NCBI GenBank assembly: GCA_003133325.1
Contig: PKXA01000069.1
Coordinates: 1 to 64,000, forward strand
DNA: 64,000 bases
Source: Acidimicrobiaceae bacterium
GTDB taxonomy: Bacteria > Actinomycetota > Acidimicrobiia > Acidimicrobiales > RAAP-2
Reading direction: 5' to 3'
In this document: one piece after another, positions 5,312 through 45,049 of the stretch
Position numbering within the stretch: the first letter of the stretch is position 1
Layout: every line of letters starts with the position of its first letter
The notes under the pieces: model-generated
Databases searched by the model: none
Told to the model about the DNA's origin: nothing
Seen by the model: the letters and a program-made list of their open reading frames with translations, nothing else
Made by a program: the position numbers and the translations under genes

Positions 5312-5432
5312 ACGCCACGGTTTGACAGGCCCGACGAAATCGAGGCACTCCCCATTTGACCAGCCGACGAGACGAGAGTGCCGGCGTTCCGGAGGATATG
5401 ACCATCGGCGAGGAGCCCACTACGTCATATCT

Positions 5433-5446
5433 CTAGTATAAACTAA
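5433..5446 (+). promoter_or_regulatory. CTAGT-N4-ACTAA operator-like box
   Basis: CTAGT-ATAA-ACTAA, one mismatch from the palindrome CTAGT-N4-ACTAG that recurs upstream of other genes in this window. It lies about 130 bases before the broken osmC and is the only AT-rich island in the 260-base gap after acnA. It would control the osmC-gltD transcription unit. Confidence 0.5.
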
Positions 5447-5572
5447 AAGAACAGCTTAACATCCGATGGCTGGCGAGCCGATTGGAGACGTCCCCGAGAC
5501 AGGAGCTCGGTAGCAACGAGTGGTGAACCGTGTCCGCAACCGGGCTATGTCGCAGCGGCGATAAGAGGGAGG

Positions 5573-8206: not shown

Positions 8207-8362
8207 GGCGAGGATCTGGGCCGCATTGGCATCTGGACCTCAGCGGACGACCGCCAACCGGCCGCGGACCCTCCCGAAGTGTGGGAGGCCTTGGCCGCCA
8301 ACGGGGCCGACGTCACACCCGTGGTTGGCCTCCCGATGCCTGCGGATGCAAAATGGATCTAG
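8207..8362 (+). other. possible fragment of a luciferase-like oxidoreductase
   Basis: One frame reads LGRIGIWTS followed by an open stretch ending in MPADAKWI and a stop that overlaps the next operator. LGRIGIW resembles the start of LLM-type F420-dependent oxidoreductases, but only about 50 residues are present with no start codon. I list it as a possible relic only. Confidence 0.2.
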
Positions 8363-8372
8363 TTATTACTAG
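8359..8372 (+). promoter_or_regulatory. perfect CTAGT-N4-ACTAG box
   Basis: CTAGT-TATT-ACTAG, a perfect palindrome, followed ten bases on by a further half-site (GACTAG, 8377-8382) and an AT-rich stretch suitable for a -10 element. It lies about 60 bases upstream of the operon starting at 8429. Confidence 0.65.
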
Positions 8373-8428
8373 TGTTGACTAGATATATATGGTAAGACAT
8401 CTACGGCAGACGAGAAGAGGAGGCACTG

Positions 8429-8686
8429 ATGAGGCCTGCAGTCACGACCGCGAAGCCGCCTGCAGCCGGCAGCGTGGCGGCGCCCCCCACCCGTGCGGCC
8501 GTTGCCACTCGAATGATCGGGGCGCCACTCGGCAACCTGGCGATGGACCGCTTCACCGGGCAGTCGACGGCAGAAGCGTTCATCGACAAGTTCGGTCGAG
8601 CCATCGGGGACCGACGTCACGCAGAGCCGTCATACAGCAAGGGTGATGGCCGCGACGGCCGCCGAGGAGGCTTGAGCCATGGCTGA
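8429..8686 (+). CDS. small hypothetical protein, first gene of hemerythrin-like operon
   Basis: 85 residues. The N-terminal half is rich in Ala and Pro, followed by an amphipathic MDRFTGQSTAEAFIDKFGRAI segment (split here for length) and a basic, Gly-rich tail. AGGAGG five bases before ATG 8429 strongly supports translation. The last codons overlap the next gene's start (8679). I recognise no domain. The second hemerythrin-like locus at 44618 has no counterpart of it. Confidence 0.55.
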   Translation: MRPAVTTAKPPAAGSVAAPPTRAAVATRMIGAPLGNLAMDRFTGQSTAEAFIDKFGRAIGDRRHAEPSYSKGDGRDGRRGGLSHG

Positions 8687-9113
8687 TGCATCCCAACCCG
8701 CCCGGGGTCCACGTCACTCCCAGGTTTGCCTGTGTCCAGAGCGCTGGACAGGCGAGCATGCTGTGCACCTCCCTCATGAGGCCCTGCTGACTCTGGCGCG
8801 CAAGGTCCATGCCGCCGCTGACGACGACGATCCGCAACGCCTGGAGCAGGCAGCGCTGCACCTCTTCGATGCACTGGCGACCCATGTGCGCGACGAGGAC
8901 GTCACTATGGGCGCACTCTCCCCAGCGCTGGTCCGCATCCTCGGACGTGGCCAGGAGCGCCTCCTCTCCCTGGCCGCCGAGCTTGCCGCCGAGGCTGCTG
9001 CCGGTTGCACGTCGACATCCGAGCTGTGCCGGACACGCACTGAGGAGCTGCTGGCCCTCCTCGTGCTCCAGGCCCGAGACGAACACGTCGCCCCGTACGA
9101 CCCCGCTGCCTGA
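8679..9113 (+). CDS. hemerythrin-like protein, copy 1
   Basis: 144 residues, mostly helical. A His-Glu pair opens the conserved part (LPHEALLTLARKV), then HLFDALATHVRDE, a GQERLLSL helix, a Cys-rich turn and the closing LQARDEHVAPYDPA. The spacing of His and Glu/Asp fits a degenerate HHE four-helix bundle that could hold a diiron centre. It is clearly paralogous to the protein at 44618-45049, and both are followed by an NHL-repeat gene. The start is supported by GGAGG eight bases upstream. Binding of O2, NO or iron is inference; the metal ligands are incomplete compared with classical hemerythrins. Confidence 0.65.
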   Translation: MADASQPARGPRHSQVCLCPERWTGEHAVHLPHEALLTLARKVHAAADDDDPQRLEQAALHLFDALATHVRDEDVTMGALSPALVRILGRGQERLLSLAAELAAEAAAGCTSTSELCRTRTEELLALLVLQARDEHVAPYDPAA

Positions 9114-10598: not shown

Positions 10599-10973
10599 AT
10601 GGGACACACAACGAGAACTAGAGACCAGCGGACGAGCGGGTCCGGCTCCGACGGACCCCAGCGGGAAGCCCGGGCTCTCGGTGGCCCAACGCGCCATCAG
10701 ATCTTCCGTCATACCGAAGACGCCCGGCGCTCGGAGAATTCCGTCCGGCTCACCGCGCTCTTGTTCCTCAACCAGTACGCGGTCTGCCAGCATCTGACCG
10801 TGAGCGAAGATGCGAGGCTGGTGGTCGAAGAGATTGGGCAGCGTAGCCGGCACAGGCGACCTCTCCTGCTGTACCGGCTCCGTCCTGACGCTTCACGGCC
10901 CCACCCGCCACGGGGCGTTCTTGCCCCATCAGGTGGCCACCTCGGAAACACTTCCTCACGAATGTCCGCATGA
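10599..10973 (+). pseudogene. decayed ArsR/SufR-like winged-helix regulator
   Basis: An open frame of 124 codons. Residues ~20-105 align with the regulator at 39035-39703: QREARALGGPTRHQIFRHTED versus QREARALGDPTRYRLFRYIVD (fragments of each), then QHLTVSEDARLVVEEI and RRPLLLYRLRPDA. The recognition-helix segment NHNAVRQHL is replaced by NQYAVCQHL, and the whole cysteine-bearing C-terminal half is missing. It keeps an upstream CTAGT half-site. It probably no longer binds DNA as the parent does. Confidence 0.7.
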
Positions 10974-12245: not shown

Positions 12246-12893
12246 TCATGCCTCCTTCGTTCGGGCCGGCCATTGCCGGCGGTCCTGCGAGACCCCCCGG
12301 ATGTCCTCGGACACGAACGGCCGACCTCGCCGGCCGGCCCCGCCAAGGACGCCGAGCTCGACAAGCCGCTCCAAGATGCCGATACGCATCGGCGCGGTAC
12401 CCCCAGAGACGGCCATCGTGGGCACCGTCGGCCTGTCGAAGCCCAGCCACTCGTTATGCCACCACTGCAGGGTGGCGCTGGGCGGAGCGGTTGGGCAGCC
12501 GAACTCACCAGGCACACTCGCATTGCCTTTGTCGAGTCCTTTGACCCATAAGGCGTCGAAGACCGCTGCCCGAAGTAGGTCCGCGTCGACATCGGTGACC
12601 ATCGAGTACCTCGTGAGGGCGAGCGTGGTACCGGGATGCACTGTGGATCGTGTCGCCGGGTAGGACCCGCCGAGCCCTCCCAGCAGGCCGTGGATCCCGA
12701 CGGCTTCCCGGTCTGACAGCTCGGTCAGCTCTGTCGAGACAGGTGGCCCTTCGGAAGGGACATCGAGGTCATTCACGACCATACGCCACTCCAGTCCGAC
12801 GACGCCGAGTCCGACGCGGGCCGTCCACCCGCCGGCTGGCCAAGAAGCTGTAGTGACAGTTGAACGAGCCATACATGACGAGCTTCATGTGAT
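12246..12893 (-). pseudogene. DsbA-family dithiol oxidoreductase, frameshifted copy
   Basis: The true start is ATG 12893 (MKLVMYGSFNCHYSFLASRR). One extra base after GTG-GAC near 12830 shifts the frame, and the remaining ~190 residues (VGLEWRMVVNDLDVP ... NEWLGFDRPTVPTM) continue in another frame. It aligns end to end with the intact paralogue at 38439-38996. The active-site motif is CHYS here and CPYS in the paralogue. AGGAGGG precedes the start. Confidence 0.85.
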
Positions 12894-12941
12894 CCCTCCT
12901 CGGCCCAGCACTCGCTCGGCGCGATGACGACTACGGTTATT

Positions 12942-14530: not shown

Positions 14531-14621
14531 CGACGGTCAGCACCACCCACGACGATCACACCTGAACATTGCACCACCGATAGCTCCGACCGATCCCGGC
14601 GAATCCAGGAATCACTTTCTT

Positions 14622-14644
14622 CTAGTCTTTACTAGTGAAATACT
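14622..14644 (+). promoter_or_regulatory. perfect CTAGT-N4-ACTAG box overlapping a promoter
   Basis: CTAGT-CTTT-ACTAG (14622-14635) is a perfect palindrome. AATACT at 14639-14644 makes a -10 element, and TTTCTT 17 bases upstream is a plausible weak -35, so the box fills the spacer. The GTG start at 14651 is six bases beyond the -10, which predicts a leaderless mRNA repressed by occupancy of the box. Confidence 0.65.
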
Positions 14645-14650
14645 TAGATC

Positions 14651-15457
14651 GTGGATCACTCGCTCGCCATCGACACCAGGTTTCTTGCCACCCCGGCGAC
14701 GCCCGGCCGGAAGGCCCGCGACGTCCCGAAGCGGAGGCCTGCACGCTGGGAGAACGCCCAGGTGACCGAGATCATCGAAGAGGCGCCGGATGCCGTGACC
14801 CTTCGGCTTCGACTCGAGGAGTCCACTGGCTTTCTCCCCGGCCAGTACTACAACGTGCGTCTGCCGGTACCCGGCCGACCCGGCCCGGTTCAGCGTGCCT
14901 ACTCCATTGCCTCTTCACCTGTACCGGACCCCTCGATCATCGACCTCGGGGTGCGCGAAGTCTCCGACGGGCTGATCTCGCCACGTCTGGTTCGGGATCT
15001 ATCCCCAGGCGACCGGATCGAAGTGCGGGGCCCAGTCGGGCGTTTCACCTGGACGGCCGATGACGGCGGACCGGTCCTGTTGATCGGAGCGGGCAGCGGA
15101 GTCGTCCCGCTCATGAGCATGGTCCGCTACGGAGCGGTAGCGGATCTCGCCATTCCCATGTGTCTGGTGTGCTCGTCGAGCAACTTCGACTACGCGTTCT
15201 ACCACCGTGACCTGGCTGATCTGGCCGCCCTGTACTCGTGGCTGGAGGTAGTCCACACCTTCACCCGGGATCCGGACGATCCCCGAGCGAGGCACCATCG
15301 CCGCATCGACAGGGCCATGGTGGCCGAGGCTGTGGCGGGACAGTTCCCAAGGCGTACCTACATCTGTGGCCCACCGGCAATGGTCGAGGATGTTCAGGGG
15401 TGGCTGACCGAACTTGGCGTCGATCCGGACCAAGTCCGGGTCGAGAAGTACGACTGA
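14651..15457 (+). CDS. FAD-binding oxidoreductase (ferredoxin-NADP+ reductase type)
   Basis: 268 residues, a complete FNR-like flavoprotein. The FAD domain shows the RAYSIASSP motif (residues ~83-91) and GDRIEVRGPVGRF. The NAD(P)H domain opens with LLIGAGSGVVPLMSM near 147 and ends with TYICGPPAMV and VRVEKYD. It should pass electrons between NAD(P)H and a one-electron carrier or heme protein. Degraded relatives lie at 30490 and 42420 next to metE sequences. The nearest plausible partners are the ferredoxins and hemerythrin-like proteins behind the same type of box. Confidence 0.9.
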   Translation: MDHSLAIDTRFLATPATPGRKARDVPKRRPARWENAQVTEIIEEAPDAVTLRLRLEESTGFLPGQYYNVRLPVPGRPGPVQRAYSIASSPVPDPSIIDLGVREVSDGLISPRLVRDLSPGDRIEVRGPVGRFTWTADDGGPVLLIGAGSGVVPLMSMVRYGAVADLAIPMCLVCSSSNFDYAFYHRDLADLAALYSWLEVVHTFTRDPDDPRARHHRRIDRAMVAEAVAGQFPRRTYICGPPAMVEDVQGWLTELGVDPDQVRVEKYD

Positions 15458-15618: not shown

Positions 15619-16320
15619 TCACGTCGATGTCAGGTCGCGAAGAGCCTGTGGATGAGAGGATCGAGGATTGGTCCCACGTGGCCGGATCTCGAACGCGCAG
15701 ACATATGCGCCCGCTACTTTGTGAGCAACCCGGGTCACTTCCGCCTCCGGCAGAACCTCCTGCATGAATTCGAGCTCGGTGGCGCAAGCCGGACCGAAGC
15801 GGGAGGCCACCGCCCAGATGGCACAGCTGTGGAGCGTGAGTCGATAGCTGTCGCCGGGCAACTTGTCGACGCCGGCCATGTATCCCTCGCTGTCGAGGAG
15901 CTCGTCCAGACCGGCGACCTTCTCGTCGAGCGTCTTGCCTGTCAACTGGTCCTGGCACTGCTCGACCCGCCGTCGACGACGTCGCTCGAAGACGCGCGAG
16001 ACCAGCTCGGGGTCTTCGTCCTGGAGGTGGCCGAGGAGCTCGACCGAGAGGTCAACAGCCAACCGCCCGGCAAACAGGGACTCGCCCAACTCGGTGCCGT
16101 GGTAGAGATCGACCGGCCGTCCCGACCGTCCGCGTTCTTGACGCGAGGCCACGAACCCGCCGGACTTGAGCGCAGCGAGATGCTGGCGGACAGCGCTCGG
16201 GGTAGTCCCCACGGCCTCCGCCACCGCGTCGGCGGACGCCTCGCCACGACGCTTCACGGCGACGAGGACGTGCCGCTGGGCCGGCGACAGTTCGACTGAG
16301 TCCACAGGAACGCTGTCCAT
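15619..16320 (-). CDS. sufR: SufR-type Fe-S cluster-sensing repressor
   Basis: 233 residues. The N-terminal winged helix (residues 11-75, with VAEAVGTTPSAVRQHLAALKSGGF split here) is DeoR/ArsR-like, and the C-terminal domain carries Cys166, Cys179 and Cys208. The Cys-x12-Cys spacing is that of SufR proteins, which bind a [4Fe-4S] cluster and repress suf genes when cluster supply is adequate. It is transcribed divergently from the suf operon, and a perfect palindrome (16361-16378) sits between them. The start at 16320 gives the usual length. Confidence 0.9.
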   Translation of the reverse strand: MDSVPVDSVELSPAQRHVLVAVKRRGEASADAVAEAVGTTPSAVRQHLAALKSGGFVASRQERGRSGRPVDLYHGTELGESLFAGRLAVDLSVELLGHLQDEDPELVSRVFERRRRRRVEQCQDQLTGKTLDEKVAGLDELLDSEGYMAGVDKLPGDSYRLTLHSCAIWAVASRFGPACATELEFMQEVLPEAEVTRVAHKVAGAYVCAFEIRPRGTNPRSSHPQALRDLTST

Positions 16321-16360: not shown

Positions 16361-16378
16361 TACAAGGCTATACTTGTA
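16361..16378. promoter_or_regulatory. probable SufR operator
   Basis: TACAAG-GCTATA-CTTGTA is a perfect inverted repeat. The arms extend to TTnTACAAG/CTTGTATAA with one mismatch. It lies 41 bases from the sufR start and about 80 bases upstream of the first suf reading frame, where it can cover both divergent promoters. Confidence 0.7.
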
Positions 16379-16458: not shown

Positions 16459-16647
16459 ATGAGCTTCCACGTGGCCACCAGACACAGCTCGATGGATGAG
16501 GCCGACAAGGGACAGCCGAGTTCGGTCCAAGCGCCGCGGCATCGGCAGTGTCCGGCACCCGTCGTTTCTGACAGCGGAGCAAGTCCGCCGATGCATTCGC
16601 CATCCCCCGGCACTCAGGAGTTCCCCGGTTGGAAGGCAATGCCATGA
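16459..16647 (+). CDS. 62-residue leader ORF coupled to sufB
   Basis: ATG 16459 follows AAGGAG at an ideal six-base spacing. The frame runs 62 codons, rich in Ser, Pro and His with one Cys, and its stop TGA overlaps the sufB ATG (ATGA at 16644-16647). This suggests translational coupling. I recognise no homologue. It could be a small protein, a regulatory leader, or simply an upstream frame with a chance good ribosome-binding site. Confidence 0.4.
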
Positions 16648-18089
16648 CTGGCGTGTCGGACGACGTCCGGGAATTCGTTAGCCAACAGTACCAGTACGGA
16701 TTCTCCACCGACCTCGACACCGACGTCGTGCCCAAGGGCCTGAACGAGGACGTCATCCGGCTGATCTCGGCCAAGAAGCACGAGCCGGACTGGCTCCTCG
16801 AGTGGCGCCTGCGGGCGTACCGGTACTGGATCACGCTGGAGGAACCCCACTGGCAGAACGTGCACTACGGACCCATCGATTACCAGGACATCATCTACTA
16901 CGCCGCCCCCAAGCCGAAGCCGGAACTGGCGAGCCTCGACGAGGTGGACCCCGAACTACGGACCATGTTCGACAAACTCGGGATCTCGCTCGCCGAGCAG
17001 GAGCGCCTCAGCGGCGTGGCTGTGGACGCCATCGTCGACTCGGTATCGGTGGCCACCACGTTCAAGCAGAAGCTGGCCGATGTGGGGGTCATCTTCTGCT
17101 CGTTCTCCGAAGCGGTGCAGAACCATCCGGAGCTGGTGCGCCCCTACCTCGGCTCGGTGGTCCCCTACCGGGACAACTACTTCGCCACGCTCAACTCAGC
17201 CGTCTTCACCGACGGCTCGTTCTGCTTCATCCCCAAAGGGGTGCACTGCCCCATGGAGCTCTCCACCTACTTCCGCATCAACGCCGCCGACACCGGCCAG
17301 TTCGAACGCACCCTGATCGTCGCCGAAGAGGGTGCGGACGTGAGCTATCTCGAGGGTTGCACCGCTCCGATGCGCGACAACAACCAGCTCCATGCGGCAG
17401 TCGTCGAGCTCGTGGCGCTCGAAGGGGCACGAATCAAGTACTCCACTGTCCAGAACTGGTACCCGGGCGACGCCGAAGGGCGCGGCGGCATCTACAACTT
17501 TGTCACCAAGCGGGGCAAGTGCGCCGGTGCGAACTCCAGGATCTCGTGGACACAGGTCGAGACGGGCTCGGCCATCACCTGGAAGTACCCCGGGGTCATT
17601 CTCCAAGGTGACAACTCGGTCGGGGAGTTCTATTCGGTTGCCCTCACCGCCAATCACCAACAGGCCGATACCGGCACCAAGATGATCCACATCGGCAAGA
17701 ACACGCACAGCACCATCGTCTCGAAGGCGATTTCCGCCGGACACGGGCAGAACACCTACCGGGGCCTGGTGAAGACACTGCGTTCGGCCGAAGGAGCCAG
17801 GAACCACACGCGGTGCGATTCGTTGCTCCTCGGCAGTGACAGTGGTGCCCACACCTTCCCGTACATCGAGGTCAAGCACCCGAGCGCACAGGTCGAACAC
17901 GAAGCCTCCACCTCCAAGATCAGCGAGGACCAGCTCTTCTACTGCCGCCAGCGGGGGATCTCCGAGGAGGATGCCGTTTCCATGATCGTAAACGGTTTCT
18001 GCCGCGAAGTCTTCAAGGAGTTGCCCATGGAGTTCGCGGTGGAGGCCCAAAGGCTCCTGAGTGTCAGTCTGGAAGGAAGCGTCGGATGA
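16644..18089 (+). CDS. sufB: Fe-S cluster assembly scaffold protein SufB
   Basis: 481 residues, the beta-helix core of the SufBCD scaffold on which Fe-S clusters are built. Conserved stretches include [20 protein letters not shown] (split), [73 protein letters not shown] and [23 protein letters not shown] 16644 is chosen because GGAAGG lies eight bases upstream; an in-frame TTG at 16629 overlaps that signal. It overlaps sufC by four bases. Confidence 0.96.
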
Positions 18090-18868
18090 TGCTGCAGATC
18101 GAGAACCTCCACGCCCAGATCGGCGAAAACGAGATCCTCCGGGGCGTCAACCTCGAAGTTGCAGCAGGCGAAGTGCACGCCATCATGGGCCCGAACGGCT
18201 CGGGAAAAAGCACCCTCGCCAACGTGCTTGCCGGCCACGAAGCCTACGACATCACCGGCACGGTCCTCTTCGAGGGCGAAGATCTGCTCGCCCTGTCGCC
18301 TGAGGACCGGGCCGCGGCCGGTGTCTTCCTTGCCTTTCAGCACCCGGTGGAGATTCCCGGAGTGGGCAACCTGTACTTCTTGCGCACGGCGCTCAATTCG
18401 GTGCGTCGGCAACGAGGACTCGGTGAACTCGATGTCATGGGATTCCTTGCCTTGGCTCGGGAGCGGATGAAGCTGGTCGAGATGGACGAGAGCTTCATGA
18501 GCCGATCGGTCAACGAGGATTTCTCCGGGGGTGAGAAGAAGCGCAACGAGATCCTGCAGATGACAGTTCTCGAGCCGAAGCTCGCCATCTTGGACGAGAC
18601 CGACTCCGGCCTCGACATCGATGCCCTCCGGATCGTCGCCGGCGGGGTGAACGCGCTCCGAGGTCCCGATCGGGCCCTGGTCGTCATCACCCATCATCAG
18701 CGGCTCCTCGACTACATCGTCCCCGATCAGGTCCATGTCATGGCCGGAGGTCGGATTGTCCGCTCGGGTGACAAGCACCTGGCGCTCGAACTCGAAGCGC
18801 ACGGCTACGCAGATCTCGGGCAAGAGGTGGCGTCGGACCGGTCGGCATCGGTGGGAGCAACGCCGTGA
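18086..18868 (+). CDS. sufC: Fe-S assembly ATPase SufC
   Basis: 260 residues, an ABC-type ATPase that drives conformational change in SufB-SufD. Walker A is GPNGSGKST (residues 35-43), the SufC-specific signature is [11 protein letters not shown], Walker B is [12 protein letters not shown], and the H-loop lies in [12 protein letters not shown]. Start and stop overlap its neighbours by four bases, implying a tightly coupled sufBCD unit. Confidence 0.97.
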
Positions 18869-20232
18869 CCACCGTCACGCCCACAGCAACAACCGCGCCC
18901 ACGGCGACTGTCGCCGAGCTGCTCTCCCACCTGAGGTTCCCAACAAGTGGCCCCGGTCCGGCCTGGCTGACGCAGGCCCGCCACCGGTCCGCCGAGTGGG
19001 CGACGATGCGCGGATTCCCGACGCTCAAGGACGAGGACTGGAGGTACACGCGACTCGGGCCGCTGTTGGACGTGCCGTTCGAGCGTGCGGAGGCCGGAGC
19101 CGACCACCGGATCTCGTCGTCCACCATCGAAGCGTTGACCATCGATGCGGAGAGCACTCGGCTGGTCTTCATCAACGGCTTCTTCGCCCCCGAGCTGTCG
19201 TCGATGACTGAAGTGCCGGACGGTGTCACGGTGACGAACCTGGCCTCGGTTCTGGCTGAAGGAGGCGCGGGTCTCGAACCGTTCTTCTCACACCCGTTCG
19301 GCGAGCACGACCACGCCTTCACTGCGCTCAATACCTGCCTGTTCGAGGATGGTGCGTTCATCCATCTCCCTGCCGGTTCCCTTGTCACCGCACCCATCGA
19401 GTTGGTGTTCCTCTCGGAGGCCCAGGGGTCCCCCGTCGTCTCCAATCCGCATTCCCTGATCCTGGCCGGCCCGGGCAGCCGGGTGGCAGTCATCGAGACG
19501 TATGCCGGGAACACGGGCGCCATCACGTGCACCAACACCGTGACCCAGGTGGTCCTCGAGGAGGGAGCACAGGTCGAGCACTACAAGGTCCAGGACGAAC
19601 CCGACACCGGGTTCCACCTTGCGTTGCTCGACGTCCGCCAGGGCCCCGAAAGCCGGTTCTCATCGGGATCAGTGGCACTGGGGTCGAAGATTGCCCGTAA
19701 CGAGGTACGAGTGCGCCTCGAGGGCGAGGGGGCGGAGGCCGCCATCGACAGCCTGTACTTGCCATGCGCTGACCAGCACCACGACAATCCGATTCTGATC
19801 GAGCATGCCGCGCCCCGGTGCACCAGCCGACAGCTCTACAAGGGCATCGCCGACGAACGCGGCCATGGAGTGTTCAACGGACGCATCATTGTGTGGCCAG
19901 GTGCTCAGGGTACGGACGCCAGCCAGACCAACAAGAACCTGCTGCTCTCCGACCACGCCGAGATCGACACCCGACCGCGACTCGAGATCTTCACCGATGA
20001 CGTGAAGTGCACCCACGGCGCAGCCGTAGGGGCTCTCGATGAGGAAGCACTGTTCTACCTGCGCTCGCGAGGAGTGCCCCATGAGGCGGCGAGGGCCCTG
20101 CTCACCTATGCGTTCGCCCGCGAGGTGCTGGATCTGATCCCCTCCGAGTCACTTCGTACCCACGTGGACACGCTGGTCGCTGACCAGCTCTTGACGGACC
20201 ATGACGCGACAGGGGCACGCTCCGATGAGTAA
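18865..20232 (+). CDS. sufD: Fe-S cluster assembly protein SufD
   Basis: 455 residues, homologous to SufB and its partner in the scaffold. Typical elements are DEDWRYTRL near the N-terminus, LNTCLFEDGAFIHLPAG, NTVTQVVLEEGAQVEHY, QLYKGIADERGHGVFNGRI, TNKNLLLSDHAEIDTRPRLEI and KCTHGAAVGALDEEALFYLRSRG (each a fragment of the conserved core). A low-complexity Thr/Ala N-terminus precedes the domain. It is followed by the dead sufU rather than by a cysteine desulfurase gene. Confidence 0.96.
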   Translation: MTTVTPTATTAPTATVAELLSHLRFPTSGPGPAWLTQARHRSAEWATMRGFPTLKDEDWRYTRLGPLLDVPFERAEAGADHRISSSTIEALTIDAESTRLVFINGFFAPELSSMTEVPDGVTVTNLASVLAEGGAGLEPFFSHPFGEHDHAFTALNTCLFEDGAFIHLPAGSLVTAPIELVFLSEAQGSPVVSNPHSLILAGPGSRVAVIETYAGNTGAITCTNTVTQVVLEEGAQVEHYKVQDEPDTGFHLALLDVRQGPESRFSSGSVALGSKIARNEVRVRLEGEGAEAAIDSLYLPCADQHHDNPILIEHAAPRCTSRQLYKGIADERGHGVFNGRIIVWPGAQGTDASQTNKNLLLSDHAEIDTRPRLEIFTDDVKCTHGAAVGALDEEALFYLRSRGVPHEAARALLTYAFAREVLDLIPSESLRTHVDTLVADQLLTDHDATGARSDE

Positions 20233-27770: not shown

Positions 27771-28472
27771 TCATGCTCGGTCCGGTGTTTCCTTCGCCAC
27801 GAGGGTCACGCAGCATCGCCCGGGTGCCGGATCCAGGTTGGCCGAAGTGTCGGGCAGACCTGCGGCCTGGACTACTCCTTTGATCATTTCGTAGTTCATG
27901 CCACAGACCAGTTCTCGGTGCTCGTCGGCCAGGGTGTGAAAGGGACAGTTGGCGAGGGTCATCGTGCTGCCCGCCATCCGTGGTTCATAGCCATGCTCTG
28001 CAAGAAGGTCGCACAGCCGTTCCATCGACGACGATGACCGCTCCTCCGCCCAGTCAACTCGGGCCCCGAGGGTGCGCCCGTACTCTCCGGCGACGGCCCG
28101 GAGAGCGTCGATGACGGCGACCGAACCGTCGGCTGCCTTCTCGACGGCCCGGGCCAAGAGGAGGGCTGCGAGATCATAGTGACGTTCGGGAACGCTGAGC
28201 GCGATCTCGCCTGCAGCCCGGCTGTACATCTTTGCCGGCCGGCCGGCTCCGGGACCCCCCCGTCCCGGTGGGCGGCGGTACTCGACCTCAAGAAGACCGA
28301 CGCCTGCCAGCTTGTCGAGGTGAAAGGCCGCCACGGATCGAGCCATTCCCAGGGCGGCGGAGGCATCGTCGCGGCTGACCGCGGACTCCTGTGCAGCCAC
28401 GTAGTCGTACAAGCGACGACGCATCGGTTCGTTCAAGGCGGCAAGGGCGGGCAGGCGGCCGTCGTTCTCCAT
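27771..28472 (-). CDS. winged-helix regulator with SufR-like three-cysteine sensor domain
   Basis: 233 residues. The winged helix spans ~10-85 (LNEPMRRRLYDYVAAQ, AVSRDDASAALGMARSVAAFHLDKL split, and the basic wing YRRPPGRGGPGAGRPAKMY). The C-terminal domain holds Cys176 (NCPF), Cys190 and Cys220/221, the same arrangement as Cys163/177/209 of the regulator at 39035 and Cys166/179/208 of SufR. That layout suggests Fe-S or metal ligation. It is divergent from the DoxX-like gene with palindromic CTAAA/TTTAG boxes between. Ligand and targets are inferred, not shown. Confidence 0.8.
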   Translation of the reverse strand: MENDGRLPALAALNEPMRRRLYDYVAAQESAVSRDDASAALGMARSVAAFHLDKLAGVGLLEVEYRRPPGRGGPGAGRPAKMYSRAAGEIALSVPERHYDLAALLLARAVEKAADGSVAVIDALRAVAGEYGRTLGARVDWAEERSSSSMERLCDLLAEHGYEPRMAGSTMTLANCPFHTLADEHRELVCGMNYEMIKGVVQAAGLPDTSANLDPAPGRCCVTLVAKETPDRA

Positions 28473-33902: not shown

Positions 33903-34277
33903 TTACCGAACCCGAAACCCAAGCGCCGCTGCCGCTTCTGCATCTATCAACGCGGGACTCCAGGGCGGGTCCCAGACGATGCGCACGTCGACAGCGGTCG
34001 GGTTCCCGACGGACTGGGAGATCGCGGCCCGTGCCATCTCCGGAAGGCTCTCCGAAGCCGGACACCCAGGCGTAGTGAGGGTCATTTCGACAACAATGGT
34101 CCCGTCCTCCTCACGCACGTCATAGACCAGGCCCAGGGACACCACGTCAAGGTAGAGTTCAGGGTCATAGACGGAGCGGAGCGCGCTCCACGCCACGTCG
34201 ATGGCGCTGTTCGCTGGGATCTCTGCCCGGTCCATCCCAATCGAGACCGGCCCTCTCACCTCGTCCCCAGCATTCAT
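33903..34277 (-). CDS. DUF59/MIP18 metal-sulfur cluster assembly factor
   Basis: 124 residues with the single DUF59 domain: SVYDPELYLDVVSLGLVYDV, TLTTPGCPASESLPEMAR (cluster-linked Cys) and RIVWDPPWSPALIDAEA (fragment). Such proteins help insert or repair Fe-S clusters (PaaD/SufT relatives). Its start overlaps the stop of the DUF2249 gene by four bases. Together with that gene it is divergent from the ACP-like/heme-copper-oxidase-like pair, with a CTAGT-type box between. Confidence 0.92.
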   Translation of the reverse strand: MNAGDEVRGPVSIGMDRAEIPANSAIDVAWSALRSVYDPELYLDVVSLGLVYDVREEDGTIVVEMTLTTPGCPASESLPEMARAAISQSVGNPTAVDVRIVWDPPWSPALIDAEAAAALGFRVR

Positions 34278-34495
34278 GACTGCCTCCGAAAGGTGACCTG
34301 CCAGTCGCCGACGCCAATCTCGACGGCCTCGTAGGAGAAGCCCTGTGCGCCGAGGACGCCTTCGAGCGGAACTGGTTCGAAGGGCGCCAGGACGACGAGC
34401 TCCTCGTGCTCGTCGAGGGCCGCCACCGTGGCCATGATCAGGTCGAACGGCTCGTCACCTGCGGCGATGAGCGGACGGGCGTCGATGGTGGCCAT
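34274..34495 (-). CDS. DUF2249 domain protein
   Basis: 73 residues, a stand-alone DUF2249 domain: IDARPLIAAGDEPFDLIMATVAAL (fragment), ELVVLAPFEPVPLEGVLGAQG and the closing GVGDWQVTFRRQ. DUF2249 commonly travels with hemerythrins and nitric-oxide genes. AGGAGG is five bases before ATG 34495. It is first of the DUF2249-DUF59 pair. Confidence 0.9.
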   Translation of the reverse strand: MATIDARPLIAAGDEPFDLIMATVAALDEHEELVVLAPFEPVPLEGVLGAQGFSYEAVEIGVGDWQVTFRRQS

Positions 34496-34538
34496 GACAA
34501 TCCTCCTGCGGCAAACGATCACGATTGCTGTAGTTGTT

Positions 34539-34552
34539 CTGTTTGTTACTAG
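34539..34552. promoter_or_regulatory. CTAGT-type box between divergent units
   Basis: TTCTGTT-TGTT-ACTAGAG, two mismatches in one arm from the shared palindrome. It lies between DUF2249 (start 34495) and the ACP-like gene. TTATAC at 34555-34560 could be a -10 for the rightward gene and leads straight to GTG 34569. Confidence 0.5.
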
Positions 34553-34568
34553 AGTTATACCATGATCA

Positions 34569-34901
34569 GTGTCAGAGGTCATCACAGTCGTGGAGAACAT
34601 GGACATGCCCGGTGAAACGCACCAGATCATCCAAGACATCGACGCCGACACTGTCATGGCGTTGCTCCAAGTGCTGCTCGATCCGCCCGACGGGGACGAC
34701 TTGGGCACCGCCACCATGGCCGACCTCGGCATCGACGGCCGCGACGCGTTGGACTTGTGGCAAGCGGTGTGCGAAGAGTTCGGCGAACGCACAATGGGCT
34801 CGGAGATCGATCCTAATCTGATCGATCCGACAATGACCGTGGTGGCCGCGGCCGCGGCCATGGCTGCCGAACTAGCCAACGGTTGCCATCATGGCCTCTG
34901 A
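34569..34901 (+). CDS. acyl-carrier-protein-like protein lacking the phosphopantetheine serine
   Basis: 110 residues, acidic and helical. DDLGTATMADLGIDGRDALDLW followed by VCEEFGER (fragments) recalls the ACP core (LGLDSLDALEL...EEEFG), but the attachment Ser of the DSL motif is Gly-Arg here, so it is unlikely to carry phosphopantetheine. GTG 34569 fits a leaderless start. ATG 34605 has GGAG nine bases upstream and is an alternative. It overlaps the next gene by 11 bases, implying coupling to the membrane protein. Confidence 0.5.
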   Translation: MSEVITVVENMDMPGETHQIIQDIDADTVMALLQVLLDPPDGDDLGTATMADLGIDGRDALDLWQAVCEEFGERTMGSEIDPNLIDPTMTVVAAAAAMAAELANGCHHGL

Positions 34902-36258
34902 GGCTGTGCCCCCGGCACCGAGCGCGGGAGCGTGGCAGGGACGTCCGGCCGGGCTCCCGAGCGGGATCCCACCGCCTTCAGTGCCGCTGAGTTTTCTCGC
35001 CGCTGCGTCCCTCGGGCTGGTGGCGTGTGGCGCTGCCCTGATCTGGTCACGGGCCTACGGGGTCGTGGACCCCACCGACGACCAGGTGGTCGCAGCAGCC
35101 CATTTCGCCATGTTGGCGACCCTCTCGATGGGAGTGCTCGGGGCAATCCATCAGTTCACACCGGTGATCACCCAACGGCCGTTGCGCTCGGTGCGGCTTT
35201 CCCGCGCCACATTCCTGACCTGGCTGGCTGGTGCGTGGTTGCTGCCATTCGGCTTTGCCACCCAGCAGGAGCACGTTGTCGAGACCGGAGGGGCATTCGC
35301 CGCGTTGGCTGTCACCTTGTTAGTGGTCAATATTGCCGCACCATTGTCGGTGCAGGGAAAAGGGGCCCCGGTAACAGGCCTGCGTTTTGCCATCGCCGGA
35401 TTTGTGGTGACTGCCTGTTTCGGGGTTGTCTACGTCATCGACCGTCAGGGAAACTGGTTCGACCTCACCGGGCATGTGGTCTTGGCCCACGCCTGCGTCG
35501 GGCTGTTTGCCTGGTTGGGACTCGCCTACGTCAGCGTGTCGGAGAAGCTCTGGCCGATGTTCCTCCTCGCCCATGTTCCGGGTCGACGCCGTTCGGCGTG
35601 GCTTGCCGTATGGGCAGTTCCGAGCGGGGTACTCCTGCTTTCGCCCGGGCTGCTCTTCGGCGTGGTTTGGCTCGCGTGGTTCGGGGCGGCGATCCTGGCA
35701 GTCGGGCTCGGTGCGCACCTCTTCTCCTTGATGATGCACATCCGGTATCGCCGACGTAAAGCCGATCTGCACTTGCTGTTCGTGATCACGTCGGCAGTCT
35801 GGTTGGTCGTCGGTGCCGCCCTCGCTCTTGCGGCAGAGATGATCATCGGCCGACATCATCATGTCGGCGTCGCATTGGTGGCAGCAGCAGTGGCGGCGTT
35901 CAGTGGCTGGCTGCTCATTGCCCTGGTGGGCCACGCGCACAAAGTCGTTCCTTTCATCCTGTGGTCAGCGCTTCGCGGGCGCGGTGTCGCGAAGAAGGCG
36001 GACGGGACGCCGCTCATGTTCGCCGATCTCTACGACCACCGTTGGGCCGCCATTGTCTACGGACTCGTCACCGCAGGTGTTGCCGCCGTCTGCCTGGGTT
36101 TCGCCGCGTCCATTGCGATCGCCATCGCAATTGGAGGGGGCCTGTTCATCGCCACTGGGCTCTGCATTGCCGCGAACCTCTCTGCGGCACCGCTTCGACT
36201 GCTTTCTGCCCCGCGCGCCGACCGCCTCGTCAGAGCGGAAGAGCGGACGGCTCCCTGA
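34891..36258 (+). CDS. orphan heme-copper-oxidase-like / NnrS-like membrane protein
   Basis: 455 residues with about 12 membrane helices. Histidines sit in patterns familiar from stand-alone cbb3-subunit-I-like or NnrS-like proteins: AAHFAMLATLSMGVLGAIHQFTP (fragment), GHVVLAHACVGLFAWLGLAYV ... PMFLLAH, and GHAHKVVPFILW. Such proteins are often co-regulated with nitric-oxide detoxification genes. No other oxidase subunit is nearby. Heme content and NO role are inference from family and context (DUF2249, DUF59 and hemerythrin neighbours). Confidence 0.7.
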   Translation: MASEAVPPAPSAGAWQGRPAGLPSGIPPPSVPLSFLAAASLGLVACGAALIWSRAYGVVDPTDDQVVAAAHFAMLATLSMGVLGAIHQFTPVITQRPLRSVRLSRATFLTWLAGAWLLPFGFATQQEHVVETGGAFAALAVTLLVVNIAAPLSVQGKGAPVTGLRFAIAGFVVTACFGVVYVIDRQGNWFDLTGHVVLAHACVGLFAWLGLAYVSVSEKLWPMFLLAHVPGRRRSAWLAVWAVPSGVLLLSPGLLFGVVWLAWFGAAILAVGLGAHLFSLMMHIRYRRRKADLHLLFVITSAVWLVVGAALALAAEMIIGRHHHVGVALVAAAVAAFSGWLLIALVGHAHKVVPFILWSALRGRGVAKKADGTPLMFADLYDHRWAAIVYGLVTAGVAAVCLGFAASIAIAIAIGGGLFIATGLCIAANLSAAPLRLLSAPRADRLVRAEERTAP

Positions 36259-36416: not shown

Positions 36417-37664
36417 TCAGGCTGCCGCCGGAACGGGTGGCCTTCCGATGCGCACCCGCCACATCTCAGGTCCGGATTCTAGATAGTCCCAGGTGAAATC
36501 ACCCAAATACTCGGCCTCGAACTGGTAGCGGAGCGGCTGGGGATCGTGATCGTTGACGAGGACGAATCCTTCCCCGGGCGAAAGGTTGCCATAGGTGGCG
36601 AAGATCACATCGTGGCGCTGTCCGTGGGGAAGGACGCGCACGTCCAACTCCTGTTCCCCTGAACCTTCGGACACGTTGGATCCACCAGGGGCTGCACCGT
36701 CGGGCGACGGCCTTCCAATGCGCACCCGCCACACCTCAGGTCCGGACTCGACCGCGTCCCAGGTGAACTCGCCAGCGTGTTCGGCCTCGAACTGGTAGCG
36801 GAGCGGCTTGGGATCGTGGTCGTTGACGAGCACGTAGCCGGTTTCGGGAGCGAGTCCGTGGTACGCGGCGAAGATCATCTCGTGGCGCTGTGCAGGCGCC
36901 AGATGGCGCACGTCGAGCTCACGATCCGCGGCAGCGCCACTGCCCTCCTCCGGCGAGTGGAACGCGACCGGCTCACTGGTCACCAGCCTCACGAGCCGGT
37001 GCAGGCTTGCGGTGGTCCTGACGGCGAGCGCCGGTCTGGGGGTCCGCAGCGCGGCCCATGCCGACGCGACAAGCTTGCACGCCCGATCGCCGTGACCGGC
37101 ATTTGCCAGATCACTCGCCGCCTCCAACAGTAGCGACAGCACCACCGCTTCGGAATCAGGCGACGACGCATCCTCGACGAATGGGGCCTCCTGGGCCTCT
37201 TCGGTCAGTCGGTGCATCTGCACCAACAGCTGTGCCAGGTCGACATCGTCATCCTCCAGGAGTACTGGGAGCAGCAGATCGTTCTCCTTGTTGACGTGAG
37301 TGGTGAAGAGGGTACCGATCTGCATTGCCTGCTCGACTGCCGCAGGGGCCGTTGCCGCATTGGCCAGCGACTCGGCGGCCGAGGTGAGGACACGGTGCTC
37401 GGCAGTCATCTTGTCCACCGTGTCGGCAAGGTCGGCACGGACCCCGGCGACACGGTAGATGCTGTGTTCTTCCGCCACCGCGTGGGGGAGCACTTCCTCC
37501 GCGAGGTAGGCGACCAGTGCAGCCACCGCCGGTTCGTAGGCGATGCCGCTCTCCACGGCCCCAACGAGGGCGGCGATCCGGACACCCACGTGCTCGTCCA
37601 GGGCGCGGTGGTGCTGGAGCATCGCATCGAAAGCTTCGGTCTGAGTGATCGTCATGGTGTCCAA
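36417..37664 (-). CDS. hemerythrin HHE protein with two C-terminal DUF2249 domains
   Basis: 415 residues. The HHE four-helix bundle occupies ~10-160 (LQHHRALDEHVGVRI, LPHAVAEEHSIYRV, MTAEHRVL, TTHVNKENDLLLPVL), followed by a helical linker (~160-235). Two DUF2249 repeats of about 70 residues then follow, nearly identical in their core VNDHDPxPLRYQFEAE and WRVRIGRPxP and separated by a Gly/Ser linker. Diiron hemerythrins of this kind are tied to O2/NO sensing and to Fe-S repair (YtfE/RIC). It starts at 37664 next to a strong CTAGT-type palindrome and is divergent from a small membrane protein. Confidence 0.92.
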   Translation of the reverse strand: MDTMTITQTEAFDAMLQHHRALDEHVGVRIAALVGAVESGIAYEPAVAALVAYLAEEVLPHAVAEEHSIYRVAGVRADLADTVDKMTAEHRVLTSAAESLANAATAPAAVEQAMQIGTLFTTHVNKENDLLLPVLLEDDDVDLAQLLVQMHRLTEEAQEAPFVEDASSPDSEAVVLSLLLEAASDLANAGHGDRACKLVASAWAALRTPRPALAVRTTASLHRLVRLVTSEPVAFHSPEEGSGAAADRELDVRHLAPAQRHEMIFAAYHGLAPETGYVLVNDHDPKPLRYQFEAEHAGEFTWDAVESGPEVWRVRIGRPSPDGAAPGGSNVSEGSGEQELDVRVLPHGQRHDVIFATYGNLSPGEGFVLVNDHDPQPLRYQFEAEYLGDFTWDYLESGPEMWRVRIGRPPVPAAA

Positions 37665-37718: not shown

Positions 37719-37742
37719 TTATTCTAGTATCGATTAGAATAA
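37719..37742. promoter_or_regulatory. CTAGT-type box with perfect 8-base arms
   Basis: TTATTCTA-GTATCGAT-TAGAATAA: perfect eight-base arms. Its core is CTAGT-ATCG-ATTAG, one mismatch from the shared box. It lies 55 bases from the hemerythrin start and 28 bases from ATG 37770, so it can control both divergent genes. Confidence 0.7.
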
Positions 37743-37769: not shown

Positions 37770-38243
37770 ATGTTGGCGACAAGTGCACCGCTGGTAGCCG
37801 TCGAGTTGATCTCCGCGTCCATCTGGGTGGGCGGCATGGCCTGCCTCGCCATCGTCGCCAAAGCGGCGCGAGGTGTCCTCGACGAGTCATCCCAGGTGGC
37901 ATTCTTCCGTGCGGTCGGCCGCCGGTACGGAATCGTCGGCACCGCGTCGTTGCTCATCGCCATCGCTGCCGGCCTGGCGCTCTCCTGGCCACCATCCTCA
38001 TGGTCGAGAACCATTGATGCCGCCGTAGTGCTGGCTGGTGTCCTCGTTGTCGCGACAATTGTGGGGATGATGCAGGCGCGGGCGATGACCGCCCTCCGCC
38101 GCAAAGTGATCACAAACCCCGGGGACAGTGCGACTGAGGGCGCGCTGCGTCGAGGTCGGTTGCTGGCCAACGGCATCCGTGGCCTGATGGCACTGATGAC
38201 TCTCGCCATTGTCATCCTCGCGGCATTCGCCGTCGCTCACTGA
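37770..38243 (+). CDS. CopD/DUF4149-like four-helix membrane protein
   Basis: 157 residues with hydrophobic segments at about 5-28, 48-70, 86-106 and 134-156. ELISASIWVGGMACLAIVAKAA (fragment) and VGRRYGIVGTASLLIAIAAGL match the start of CopD-like putative heme or copper membrane proteins. It is divergent from the hemerythrin gene under the same operator, so a role in the same stress response is likely. Confidence in the family is moderate. Confidence 0.6.
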   Translation: MLATSAPLVAVELISASIWVGGMACLAIVAKAARGVLDESSQVAFFRAVGRRYGIVGTASLLIAIAAGLALSWPPSSWSRTIDAAVVLAGVLVVATIVGMMQARAMTALRRKVITNPGDSATEGALRRGRLLANGIRGLMALMTLAIVILAAFAVAH

Positions 38244-38438: not shown

Positions 38439-38996
38439 TCATTGGGTAGTGGTACCGCCGAAAGCGAAGTCGGCGAGCCGCTTCAAGGCGCCCAGACCTC
38501 GCGAAACGGTGCCGTCGGTCAAGACCAACATGGGCACCACTGGCCGATCGAATCCGAGCCACTCGCTGCGCCATTGCTCCGCGGTGGGAGTCAGAGCCGG
38601 AGCCGGACAGTCCAACCCACGCAGTACGATCGCATCACCGATGTCCAGGTCCCGCACCCAGAGCGCGTCAAAGAGTCGGGCCCGGAGTCGATCGGCGCCG
38701 TCGCCGGTCATTGCGGAGAACCCAGCAACCGCCAGTGCCGTGTTGGGCTGCACGGTCGGCGACGACGCCTCATACGTTTCTCCCCCACGCAGTAGGCCCC
38801 GAATCTCTTCGAGCTCCCGATCGAACAGTGCAGCCAGCTCTCCGACGACCGGCTCTCCCTGTATCGGAACATCGGGATCGTGGACGACAGCGCGCCACTC
38901 CACGCCGGCGACACCCAACTCAACCAGGCGGTCTACCCGCCTGCTGGCCAGAAGGCTGTAGGGACAGTTGAAGGACCCGTAGACCACGAGCTTCAT
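38439..38996 (-). CDS. DsbA-family oxidoreductase (CPYS active site)
   Basis: 185 residues, thioredoxin fold of the DsbA/HCCA type. The opening strand MKLVVYGSFNCPYSLLASRR places a single active-site Cys11 (C-P-Y-S rather than CxxC). The conserved cis-Pro region is GFDRPVVPMLVL. The single cysteine suggests isomerase, reductase or glutathione-type chemistry rather than disulfide formation. No signal peptide is visible, so it acts in the cytosol. A frameshifted paralogue is at 12246-12893. It is immediately downstream of the regulator at 39035, probably co-transcribed. Confidence 0.85.
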   Translation of the reverse strand: MKLVVYGSFNCPYSLLASRRVDRLVELGVAGVEWRAVVHDPDVPIQGEPVVGELAALFDRELEEIRGLLRGGETYEASSPTVQPNTALAVAGFSAMTGDGADRLRARLFDALWVRDLDIGDAIVLRGLDCPAPALTPTAEQWRSEWLGFDRPVVPMLVLTDGTVSRGLGALKRLADFAFGGTTTQ

Positions 38997-39034: not shown

Positions 39035-39703
39035 TTACCCCTGCGCCGATACCGGATCGCGCTTGAGAACGAGCCGACATCCTGCGCGGTGCGGGTCTTT
39101 GGCTGTAAGGCGGTCCACCGTCAATCCGCCGAGGCCTTGGGCGAGCCCCTCGGCGAGACCGAGGTGGAGCTGGCAGACTGTGCCAGGGTTGCCGGTAGCA
39201 ACCTCCTCAAACGGACAGCGCGCCAGTACGAAGTCGACTTGGCGACCTCGCTCGCTCCGGGTCGGGCGGAAGCCACCTCGGATCAGCTCCCGCTCCATGG
39301 TGTCGACGGAGTCGCCGATACCCGAGCACTCGTTCGCTCGTTGCAGACCTTCTTGACGGCCCACCTCACGGGAGCTCAGGTCGTGCTTCACTGCCTCACC
39401 CAGCAATCCGGCGAGCCACGCATACGGCCCTGATGTCTCCCACTTCCCGGCCGCCTCAGGGTGCAACCGATAGAGCAGGCGTGGACGACCCGGACTGTCA
39501 CGGGCTTCGACCTCTTCGACGACCAGGTCAGCGTCCTTCAGCACGGCGAGATGCTGGCGCACCGCGTTGTGGTTCAATTCGACATACGTGGTCAGCTCCG
39601 CCACGCCGACCGGTCGGTCGGAATCGACGATGTAGCGGAACAGGCGATAGCGAGTCGGATCCCCGAGTGCCCGCGCCTCGCGTTGAATTGCGTTCGTGTC
39701 CAT
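39035..39703 (-). CDS. SufR-like three-cysteine winged-helix regulator, candidate CTAGT-box repressor
   Basis: 222 residues. The N-terminal winged helix reads REARALGDPTRYRLFRYIV, VELNHNAVRQHLAVLKDADLV (split) and GRPRLLYRLHPEA. The C-terminal sensor domain holds Cys163 (RCPFEEV), Cys177 with His180 (CQLH) and Cys209 (GCRL). That is Cys-x13-Cys-x31-Cys, comparable to SufR's Cys-x12-Cys-x28-Cys. ATG 39703 follows AGGAG. A CTAGT-type box lies 40 bases upstream, so autoregulation is likely. This is the best candidate in the window for the factor that reads the shared box; two decayed relatives (10599 and 39770) also keep the box nearby. Confidence 0.8.
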   Translation of the reverse strand: MDTNAIQREARALGDPTRYRLFRYIVDSDRPVGVAELTTYVELNHNAVRQHLAVLKDADLVVEEVEARDSPGRPRLLYRLHPEAAGKWETSGPYAWLAGLLGEAVKHDLSSREVGRQEGLQRANECSGIGDSVDTMERELIRGGFRPTRSERGRQVDFVLARCPFEEVATGNPGTVCQLHLGLAEGLAQGLGGLTVDRLTAKDPHRAGCRLVLKRDPVSAQG

Positions 39704-39742
39704 GCGTCTCCTCACGATGCCCCTCAGTGGGACACGTCAGAG

Positions 39743-39760
39743 TTCTAGTCTATACCAGAA
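39743..39760. promoter_or_regulatory. CTAGT-type box upstream of the regulator gene
   Basis: TTCTAGT-CTAT-ACCAGAA, one mismatch between the seven-base arms. It lies between the intact regulator (start 39703) and the relic that begins at about 39770. Confidence 0.65.
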
Positions 39761-39769
39761 GAACTAGCC

Positions 39770-39995
39770 TCTATGTGAACCCCCGTGTGCTGCAGCAGGG
39801 CGCTGGACGGCAGGTCAGAGGTCGGGGATCTCGACCTCGTCGACCACGAGGCCCATGGCTCTGCGTATGCCGAGATGCTGGCGCACGACGTTGTGGTTGA
39901 GGTGTGCAAAAGTCGGTGAATTCGGCTACACCAGCCAGTCGAGCCGCCTCGGTCACATGGCAAAGAGACAACGGTAGGCCGGATCTCCAGGCACC
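39770..39995 (-). pseudogene. relic of a third three-cysteine regulator
   Basis: On the minus strand, GDPAYRCLFAM and, after stops, LNHNVVRQHLGIRRAMGLVVDEVEIPDL (fragments) match GDPTRYRLFRYI and LNHNAVRQHLAVLKDADLVVEEVEARD of the adjacent regulator. Stops interrupt it, and its C-terminal half is absent. It looks like a tandem duplication of the regulator that decayed. Confidence 0.75.
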
Positions 39996-40045
39996 CGCGG
40001 TTCACGTTGCACGCCTGCTTCCACCGAGCACCTCCCGAGGTGCTC

Positions 40046-40063
40046 TTCTAGCGTACGCCAGAA
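40046..40063. promoter_or_regulatory. CTAGC-type box
   Basis: TTCTAGC-GTAC-GCCAGAA, one mismatch between the arms. It is followed by an AT-rich TATATATAG suitable for a -10 towards the gene at 40153. It may also have served the relic to its left. Confidence 0.55.
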
Positions 40064-44544: not shown

Positions 44545-44573
44545 TTGTTTTTCTAGCCATTACTAGATATACT
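44545..44573 (+). promoter_or_regulatory. promoter with CTAGC-N4-ACTAG box in the spacer
   Basis: TTGTTT (44545-44550) - 17 bases - TATACT (44568-44573). The spacer holds CTAGC-CATT-ACTAG (44553-44566), one mismatch from the perfect box. A bound protein would block RNA polymerase directly. This is the clearest repressor-style arrangement in the window. Confidence 0.75.
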
Positions 44574-44617
44574 GCTAGTGGATGGCTGGAGAAGCCTGGA
44601 GTCGAAGGAGGTGTTTG

Positions 44618-45049
44618 ATGCCAGTAGATCCGCAGCGAGATCCTTCATCTCTGGCCTACAGGGGTGTCTGGGAGCGGCAATCCCCGAATGGCCAGTACAT
44701 GCCCCTTCGCCACGAGGCCCTCTTGACCTTGGCCCGCAAGGTGCAGGCTGCCGCCGAAGACGGCGACATCCATCGTCTCGAAGAAGCAGCGTCGTACCTT
44801 CTTGACGAATTGGCTCTTCACGTCCTTGACGAGCGGACCGCCTGGGTCGCGCTCGCACCGAACGAAGAGCGCATGCTTGCCCGTGGGCTGGCTCATCTCG
44901 TATCCGATGCCGCAGCGTTGGCCGAGGCCACCTCCACGGGCTGCGCAGGGCAGACAGAGCAGTGCGTGGACCGTGCTGAGGAGCTGGTGGCCCGTTTGTA
45001 TCTACAGGCCCGTGACGAGCGTCTCGCGTTCTACGATCCGGCAGCCTGA
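44618..45049 (+). CDS. hemerythrin-like protein, copy 2
   Basis: 143 residues, paralogous to 8679-9113 (HEALLTLARKVQAAAEDGD versus HEALLTLARKVHAAADDDD; LQARDERLAFYDPAA versus LQARDEHVAPYDPAA). The final His of copy 1 is Arg here, so the metal site may differ. AAGGAGGTG precedes ATG 44618, a near-perfect Shine-Dalgarno; an upstream in-frame ATG at 44582 is less likely. It is led by the box-containing promoter at 44545 and followed by the NHL remnant. Confidence 0.65.
   Translation: MPVDPQRDPSSLAYRGVWERQSPNGQYMPLRHEALLTLARKVQAAAEDGDIHRLEEAASYLLDELALHVLDERTAWVALAPNEERMLARGLAHLVSDAAALAEATSTGCAGQTEQCVDRAEELVARLYLQARDERLAFYDPAA

Follow-up and report, generated by a model that had tools for sequence, protein, structure and literature searches.

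ArnR of Corynebacterium glutamicum is a nitric oxide (NO)-responsive [4Fe-4S] repressor, encoded next to narKGHJI, which represses nar and hmp and loses DNA binding with NO (PMC12343034). Preparations of ArnR hold about 0.5 Zn, and zinc-bound TRAPPC3 has served as its modelling template (PMC12343034). Rv2621c of Mycobacterium tuberculosis (Mtb), which has been called ArnR-like, comprises a winged helix-turn-helix (wHTH) and a TRAPPC3-like C-terminal domain (PMC12343034). SufR-type regulators, among them Mtb Rv1460 with its cysteines C203, C216 and C244, respond to cluster status (PMC6034842). In a haloarchaeon, expression of DUF2249 genes rises during denitrification (PMC11218638). The literature searched contained no description of an NO or SufR regulator from Acidimicrobiales.

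Here we analysed a 64,000-nucleotide stretch of an Acidimicrobiaceae genome (hereafter, the window) containing a regulator gene and a recurrent 18-bp palindrome, the box. We propose, with reasonable though far from complete confidence, that the encoded protein is a homodimeric Fe-S repressor that reads the palindrome and is released by NO or cluster damage, turning on NO-handling and Fe-S-repair genes. The DNA contact, dimer, cluster, sign of regulation and NO as signal are each inferred, the model being based on conserved residues, predicted fold, and the conservation, placement and regulator linkage of the operator. This gives the study of nitrosative and Fe-S stress in Acidimicrobiales, a little-studied group of actinobacteria, an operator, a regulator and a regulon that can be tested, and places DUF2249, a domain of unknown function, in a defined putative regulon.

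Regulator architecture and relation to known families

The regulator gene (39035-39703, minus strand) runs from an ATG at 39703 to a stop ending at 39035 and encodes 222 aa. Its sole Pfam match is an ArsR-type helix-turn-helix (HTH_20, 37 bits), and an AlphaFold model (pLDDT 79) shows a wHTH and a further domain of ~130 residues. Within the latter, residues 85-217 resemble the TRAPP subunits 2bjn, 3kxc, 2cfh and 2c0j (Z 11-12.4, rmsd 3.1-3.5) in one structural alignment of low identity (8-9%); the top Foldseek list consisted mostly of wHTH proteins, the sensor fold being visible only with a second aligner. Weak V4R Pfam matches were obtained for three orthologues. Four cysteines are present (126, 163, 177 and 209), with His180 three residues past Cys177, giving a C-x13-C-x31-C spacing with a C-x2-H motif. 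Orthologues were drawn from 24 loci of Acidimicrobiaceae and related metagenome-assembled genomes (MAGs), including an Acidiferrimicrobium isolate (L054), and from many further Acidimicrobiales genomes; most of the loci compared derive from MAGs. Across the 24 orthologues compared, Cys163, Cys177, His180 and Cys209 are invariant and Cys126 varies, so that the first-pass annotation of this reading frame as a winged helix with these four residues was correct.

Family models placed the protein outside several known groups. The ArsR/SmtB model NF033788 scored 42.8 bits against a cut-off of 55, over the wHTH part only, and the additional domain sets the regulator apart from single-domain ArsR/SmtB proteins. 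No Rrf2 match above cut-off was returned by profile search. NsrR, the NO sensor of the Rrf2 family, accordingly belongs to another protein family than the regulator and, if our model holds, would be alike in being a [4Fe-4S] repressor released by NO. The regulator shares a wHTH, three C-terminal cysteines and autoregulation with SufR, as represented by Mtb Rv1460 (PMC6034842), cyanobacterial SufR and the window SufR (15619-16320, minus strand). However, the SufR model TIGR02702 (curated cut-off 178.8 bits) matched the regulator at 19 bits over the winged helix alone (residues 34-82), compared with 88.9 bits over the full length of the window SufR. The spacing also differs, being x12 then x27-28 in SufR (C-x12-C-x28-C in the window protein, exactly as first annotated), as do the operators, and the regulator is not beside suf in this genome. 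In a tree whose deep order is not resolved, SufR and a further window protein at 27771 lying on very long branches, the regulator clade stood well apart from the window SufR. The first-pass assignment to a branch distinct from SufR was therefore well founded.

Judged by published layout and fold, and not by sequence alignment, the nearest described protein is ArnR, which provides a better fit than SufR. Both have a wHTH, three conserved cysteines of which the first two are separated by 13 residues, a conserved histidine close by, a TRAPPC3-like sensor domain (predicted here for the regulator) and a link to nitrate/NO metabolism; the second cysteine interval is 29 in ArnR and 31 in the regulator. 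The wHTH and TRAPPC3-like C-terminal domain are also shared with Rv2621c, as that protein is described (PMC12343034). Given the ArsR/SmtB-like wHTH, the zinc content of ArnR preparations and the zinc-bound template used to model ArnR (PMC12343034), the three cysteines might instead form a zinc site or thiol switches with no Fe-S cluster. We consider this quite unlikely, as three cysteines in this arrangement hold Fe-S clusters in both ArnR and Rv1460 (PMC12343034, PMC6034842) and the putative regulon includes Fe-S assembly genes.

Directly 3' of the regulator on the same strand lies a DsbA-like thioredoxin-fold gene (38439-38996, minus), a neighbour kept in three of the related loci (L047-L049). 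A second DsbA-like gene (12342-12888, minus; 47% identity) is split over two frames; 53 bp upstream of it, at 12940, lies a weak site resembling the box.

A conserved palindrome linked to the regulator

The box is an 18-bp inverted repeat, TTCTAGTNNNNACTAGAA, often with TTA...TAA flanks. Searches for CTAGTN4ACTAG with at most one mismatch identified 8 sites in the window, against 0.19 expected from dinucleotide shuffles. Of the 4.05-Mb genome the window makes up 1.6%, yet every exact core (3 of 3) and 8 of 13 sites with one mismatch or none fall within it (binomial p about 5e-12 for this clustering). The box is not a chance occurrence.

The operator of the regulator gene itself, TTCTGGTATAGACTAGAA (39743-39760, minus), lies 39 bp from its ATG, confirming the initial placement of a box about 40 bases upstream, and is conserved at orthologues. 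Further operators are found between the divergent genes for a hemerythrin-DUF2249 protein and a small membrane protein (TTCTAGTATCGATTAGAA, 37722-37739); 13 bp before the start of a reductase gene (TTCTAGTCTTTACTAGTG, 14620-14637, plus); and 14 bp before the reading frame starting at 44582 (TTCTAGCCATTACTAGAT, 44551-44568, plus). A weaker operator (TTCTGTTTGTTACTAGAG, 34537-34554, score 14.1) separates two divergent operons encoding a NorB-like protein and DUF2249-DUF59 proteins. At 8357-8384 (plus) two exact cores overlap with a 10-bp offset to form a double operator; this offset is approximately one helical turn and would let two dimers sit next to each other on the same face of the DNA. The site at 40046-40063 precedes a decayed second regulator copy on the minus strand and lies 89 bp before a DUF3565/DUF1971 gene on the plus strand (40153). 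An operator-like site at 5431-5448 (CTCTAGTATAAACTAAAA, plus, score 23.1) has no clear gene downstream, and one of the 8 sites with at most one mismatch, at 53084, lies inside narG and is probably fortuitous.

Conservation of the box was assessed across relatives. After two of 28 upstream matches (L066 and L070) were dropped as artefacts arising from genes truncated at contig ends, a box with at least 11 of 14 consensus bases was present upstream of 26 of the 34 distinct close orthologues whose upstream region was intact, and six more carried 10/14; shuffled upstream regions yielded about 0.3 boxes per 54. The usual gap between box and start codon at orthologues is 20-45 bp. A weight matrix recovered 111 sites in the 636 kb comprising the window and the regulator loci, compared with 5-13 in shuffles; the autoregulatory sites and four window sites used to train the matrix are not independent of it, the remaining sites being so. 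As the background control for exact boxes we compared genomes with and without the regulator, since a reversed-pattern control is unsuited, CTAG becoming GATC with another background frequency. Among 298 genomes of the order, an exact box was present in 25/65 with an orthologue and in 43/233 without a close orthologue (p 9e-4), the latter group counting against our model. In the genomes with an orthologue, exact boxes fell within 10 kb of the regulator in 11 of 35 cases with readable positions, where 0.25 were expected. The box lying in an autoregulatory position in orthologues and being linked to the regulator, these comparative data strongly support the regulator as the likely reader of the box, as was suggested in the first pass.

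A paralogue 68% identical to the regulator is encoded elsewhere in the genome (contig C16, 56097-56747) and carries a box of its own 25 bp before its start, a second point against the model as stated. This protein, of the same family and mechanism, could be the main reader, leaving the window copy redundant or specialized. Such an arrangement appears unlikely: no hemerythrin-DUF2249 or NorB-like genes occur within about 9 kb of the paralogue and, in relatives, the copy beside the box-linked genes of these two kinds is of the window type or is the sole copy found.

Putative regulon and proposed mechanism

Genes recurrently linked to the box across loci encode hemerythrin-DUF2249 proteins, NorB/cbb3-like proteins, a small DUF2249 protein followed by a DUF59 protein, FAD reductases and small membrane proteins; the first two are the commonest targets. 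In the window, the hemerythrin domain with two DUF2249 domains is encoded at 36417-37664 (minus), and the small membrane protein, which has a weak DUF4149 match and a box 30 bp upstream, at 37770-38243 (plus). The small single-domain DUF2249 gene (34274-34495, minus; 73 aa), assigned to its family via an orthologue (L054:12470-12688), accompanies a DUF59/FeS_assembly_P (SufT-type) gene (33903-34277, minus). The FAD/NAD reductase (14651-15457, plus) is also box-linked in L049, L050 and L051. A small hemerythrin-like protein (8679-9113, plus) is encoded some 300 bp past the double operator and has a paralogue at 44582-45049 (plus; 57% identity over 114 aa). A box also precedes a 1-Cys peroxiredoxin gene in some genomes.

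The NorB/cbb3-like gene (34891-36258, plus), preceded by a reading frame at 34569-34901 and box-linked across relatives, encodes a membrane protein resembling the heme-copper oxidase superfamily. Although it has no Pfam match above cut-off, the best matches to its structural model (pLDDT 80.7) are cbb3 oxidase and NO reductase subunits, and histidines 71, 87, 228, 276 and 348 are invariant. By its modelled fold, the protein looks like a candidate NO-handling protein.

Under the Fe-S repressor model, each subunit of a regulator dimer would hold one Fe-S cluster, probably [4Fe-4S], in its C-terminal TRAPPC3/V4R-type domain, with Cys163, Cys177 and Cys209 as predicted ligands and His180 as a candidate fourth. 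The cluster-loaded protein would bind the box on or beside the -10 region, blocking its own gene together with the hemerythrin-DUF2249, NorB/cbb3-like, DUF2249-DUF59, FAD reductase and related genes. NO or other cluster damage would then attack the cluster and lower DNA affinity, such that NO-handling and Fe-S-repair genes are turned on. TA-rich, -10-like stretches, judged by eye, occur within or just past many boxes and fit steric repression.

The target set, being both NO-handling-like and Fe-S-repair-like, fits NO as well as other signals of cluster loss. Accordingly, the same protein might respond to Fe-S supply, oxygen or peroxide instead of NO, as would suit boxes before sufBCD, DUF59 and peroxiredoxin genes as well as the response of SufR-type regulators to cluster status (PMC6034842). 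We regard this reading as less probable, albeit one to be taken seriously: the commonest targets are the hemerythrin-DUF2249 and NorB/cbb3-like genes, DUF2249 genes respond to denitrification in the haloarchaeon (PMC11218638), and ArnR, the nearest described counterpart of the regulator, is released from DNA by NO (PMC12343034).

The putative regulon also departs from that of ArnR. While ArnR targets nar and hmp, targets here comprise hemerythrin-DUF2249, NorB/cbb3-like and DUF59 genes and, in some relatives, sufBCD. The nar genes of the window start about 8 kb from the regulator, on the minus strand, and no box was found in the narGHJI promoter. This difference from ArnR weighs against our model, and indicates that the circuit is no copy of the corynebacterial one.

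An apparent exchange of regulators at the suf operon

The window SufR gene adjoins sufBCD and is preceded by a different inverted repeat, TACAAGGCTATACTTGTA, at 16361-16378. Two sufB genes, 46% identical, are present in this genome (in the 16629-20232 region and at G000:C43:208-1596). Across the order there are two sufB types, of which the window type was defined by at least 74% identity. This type has a patchy distribution and occurs in 21/65 genomes with the regulator versus 3/65 without (p 3e-5). Boxes, with scores up to 27, precede 11 of 17 window-type sufB genes without an adjacent SufR (excluding G246, whose upstream region is too short to judge), but none of the five beside SufR (the window, G085, G115, G160 and G167; p 0.018, uncorrected for shared ancestry), and none of 40 promoters of the other sufB type. 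In SufR-less genomes the box often lies ahead of a second sufBCD operon.

Among 20 genomes, nearly all with the regulator, SufR was found in four, once with an internal stop, and was absent from 16. Given the scarcity of SufR and the lack of a box at sufB promoters beside it, the box is excluded as a general SufR operator, and SufR was rejected as its general reader. A broader alternative, that SufR at 15619, the 27771 protein or a MerR-type regulator reads the box and happens to control the regulator gene too, could draw on a similar palindrome, TTCTAGTGCACTAGAA, in a probe from the Mtb Rv3334 promoter region (PMC6177252). The half-sites of that palindrome are, however, 2 bp closer than in the box, and loci that lack the other target genes (L055, L062, L191 and L194) still combine the box with the regulator; together with the distribution of SufR, this renders such a reader very unlikely.

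With the regulator retained as reader, the same operator would also control the second sufBCD operon in relatives without SufR. From the comparative sequence data, the regulator appears to control Fe-S-cluster assembly genes in these relatives, and probably does SufR's job in some lineages. The first-pass label of SufR-like may thus hold in function, given the operator before sufBCD in SufR-less lineages, whereas layout and fold are nearer to published ArnR. The apparent swap, with SufR and its own operator in some genomes and the regulator's operator in others, offers a natural experiment in the rewiring of Fe-S homeostasis. In close relatives SufR also looks broken, as if being lost, with an internal TAG in one and apparent frameshifts in the other (G008:C12:2324-2947; L049:18588-19225).

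More tentatively, and with somewhat less than even confidence, we suggest that a whole actinobacterial order may respond to NO and Fe-S damage through a circuit of its own. Such a circuit would comprise an ArnR-type repressor and one extended palindrome, with SufR displaced at the second sufBCD operon in many lineages, and would link Fe-S repair (DUF59, sufBCD) with a so far undescribed module for NO handling, composed of hemerythrin-DUF2249 and a single-subunit NorB/cbb3-like protein.

Decayed copies and related regulators

The winged-helix region of the regulator occurs in two further, decayed copies in the window, at 10653-10955 (plus) and 39823-40020 (minus); the latter, with broken frames, is the remnant alongside the box at 40046. 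A third regulator, alike in overall architecture, is encoded at 27771-28472 (minus), with a C-x13-C-x29-CC spacing and without C-x2-H; as a guess from this layout, it may be of the Rv2621c type. Its promoter region carries a different repeat, TTCTAAAGTAGAA, and in L137 a relative of this regulator adjoins the same divergent gene pair.

In other actinobacteria, homologues bearing C-x2-H likewise adjoin DUF2249 genes, with other promoter sequences, pointing by gene neighbourhood to a wider, unstudied pairing of such regulators with DUF2249. Because the wider family in large complete actinomycete genomes, though often beside DUF2249, has other promoters, the operator is, as far as seen, clade-specific. 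The pairing is seen for more distantly related regulators of other actinobacteria in L128, L131, L133, L134, L135 and L136, where the DUF2249 genes nearby are mostly in divergent orientation and the promoters differ.
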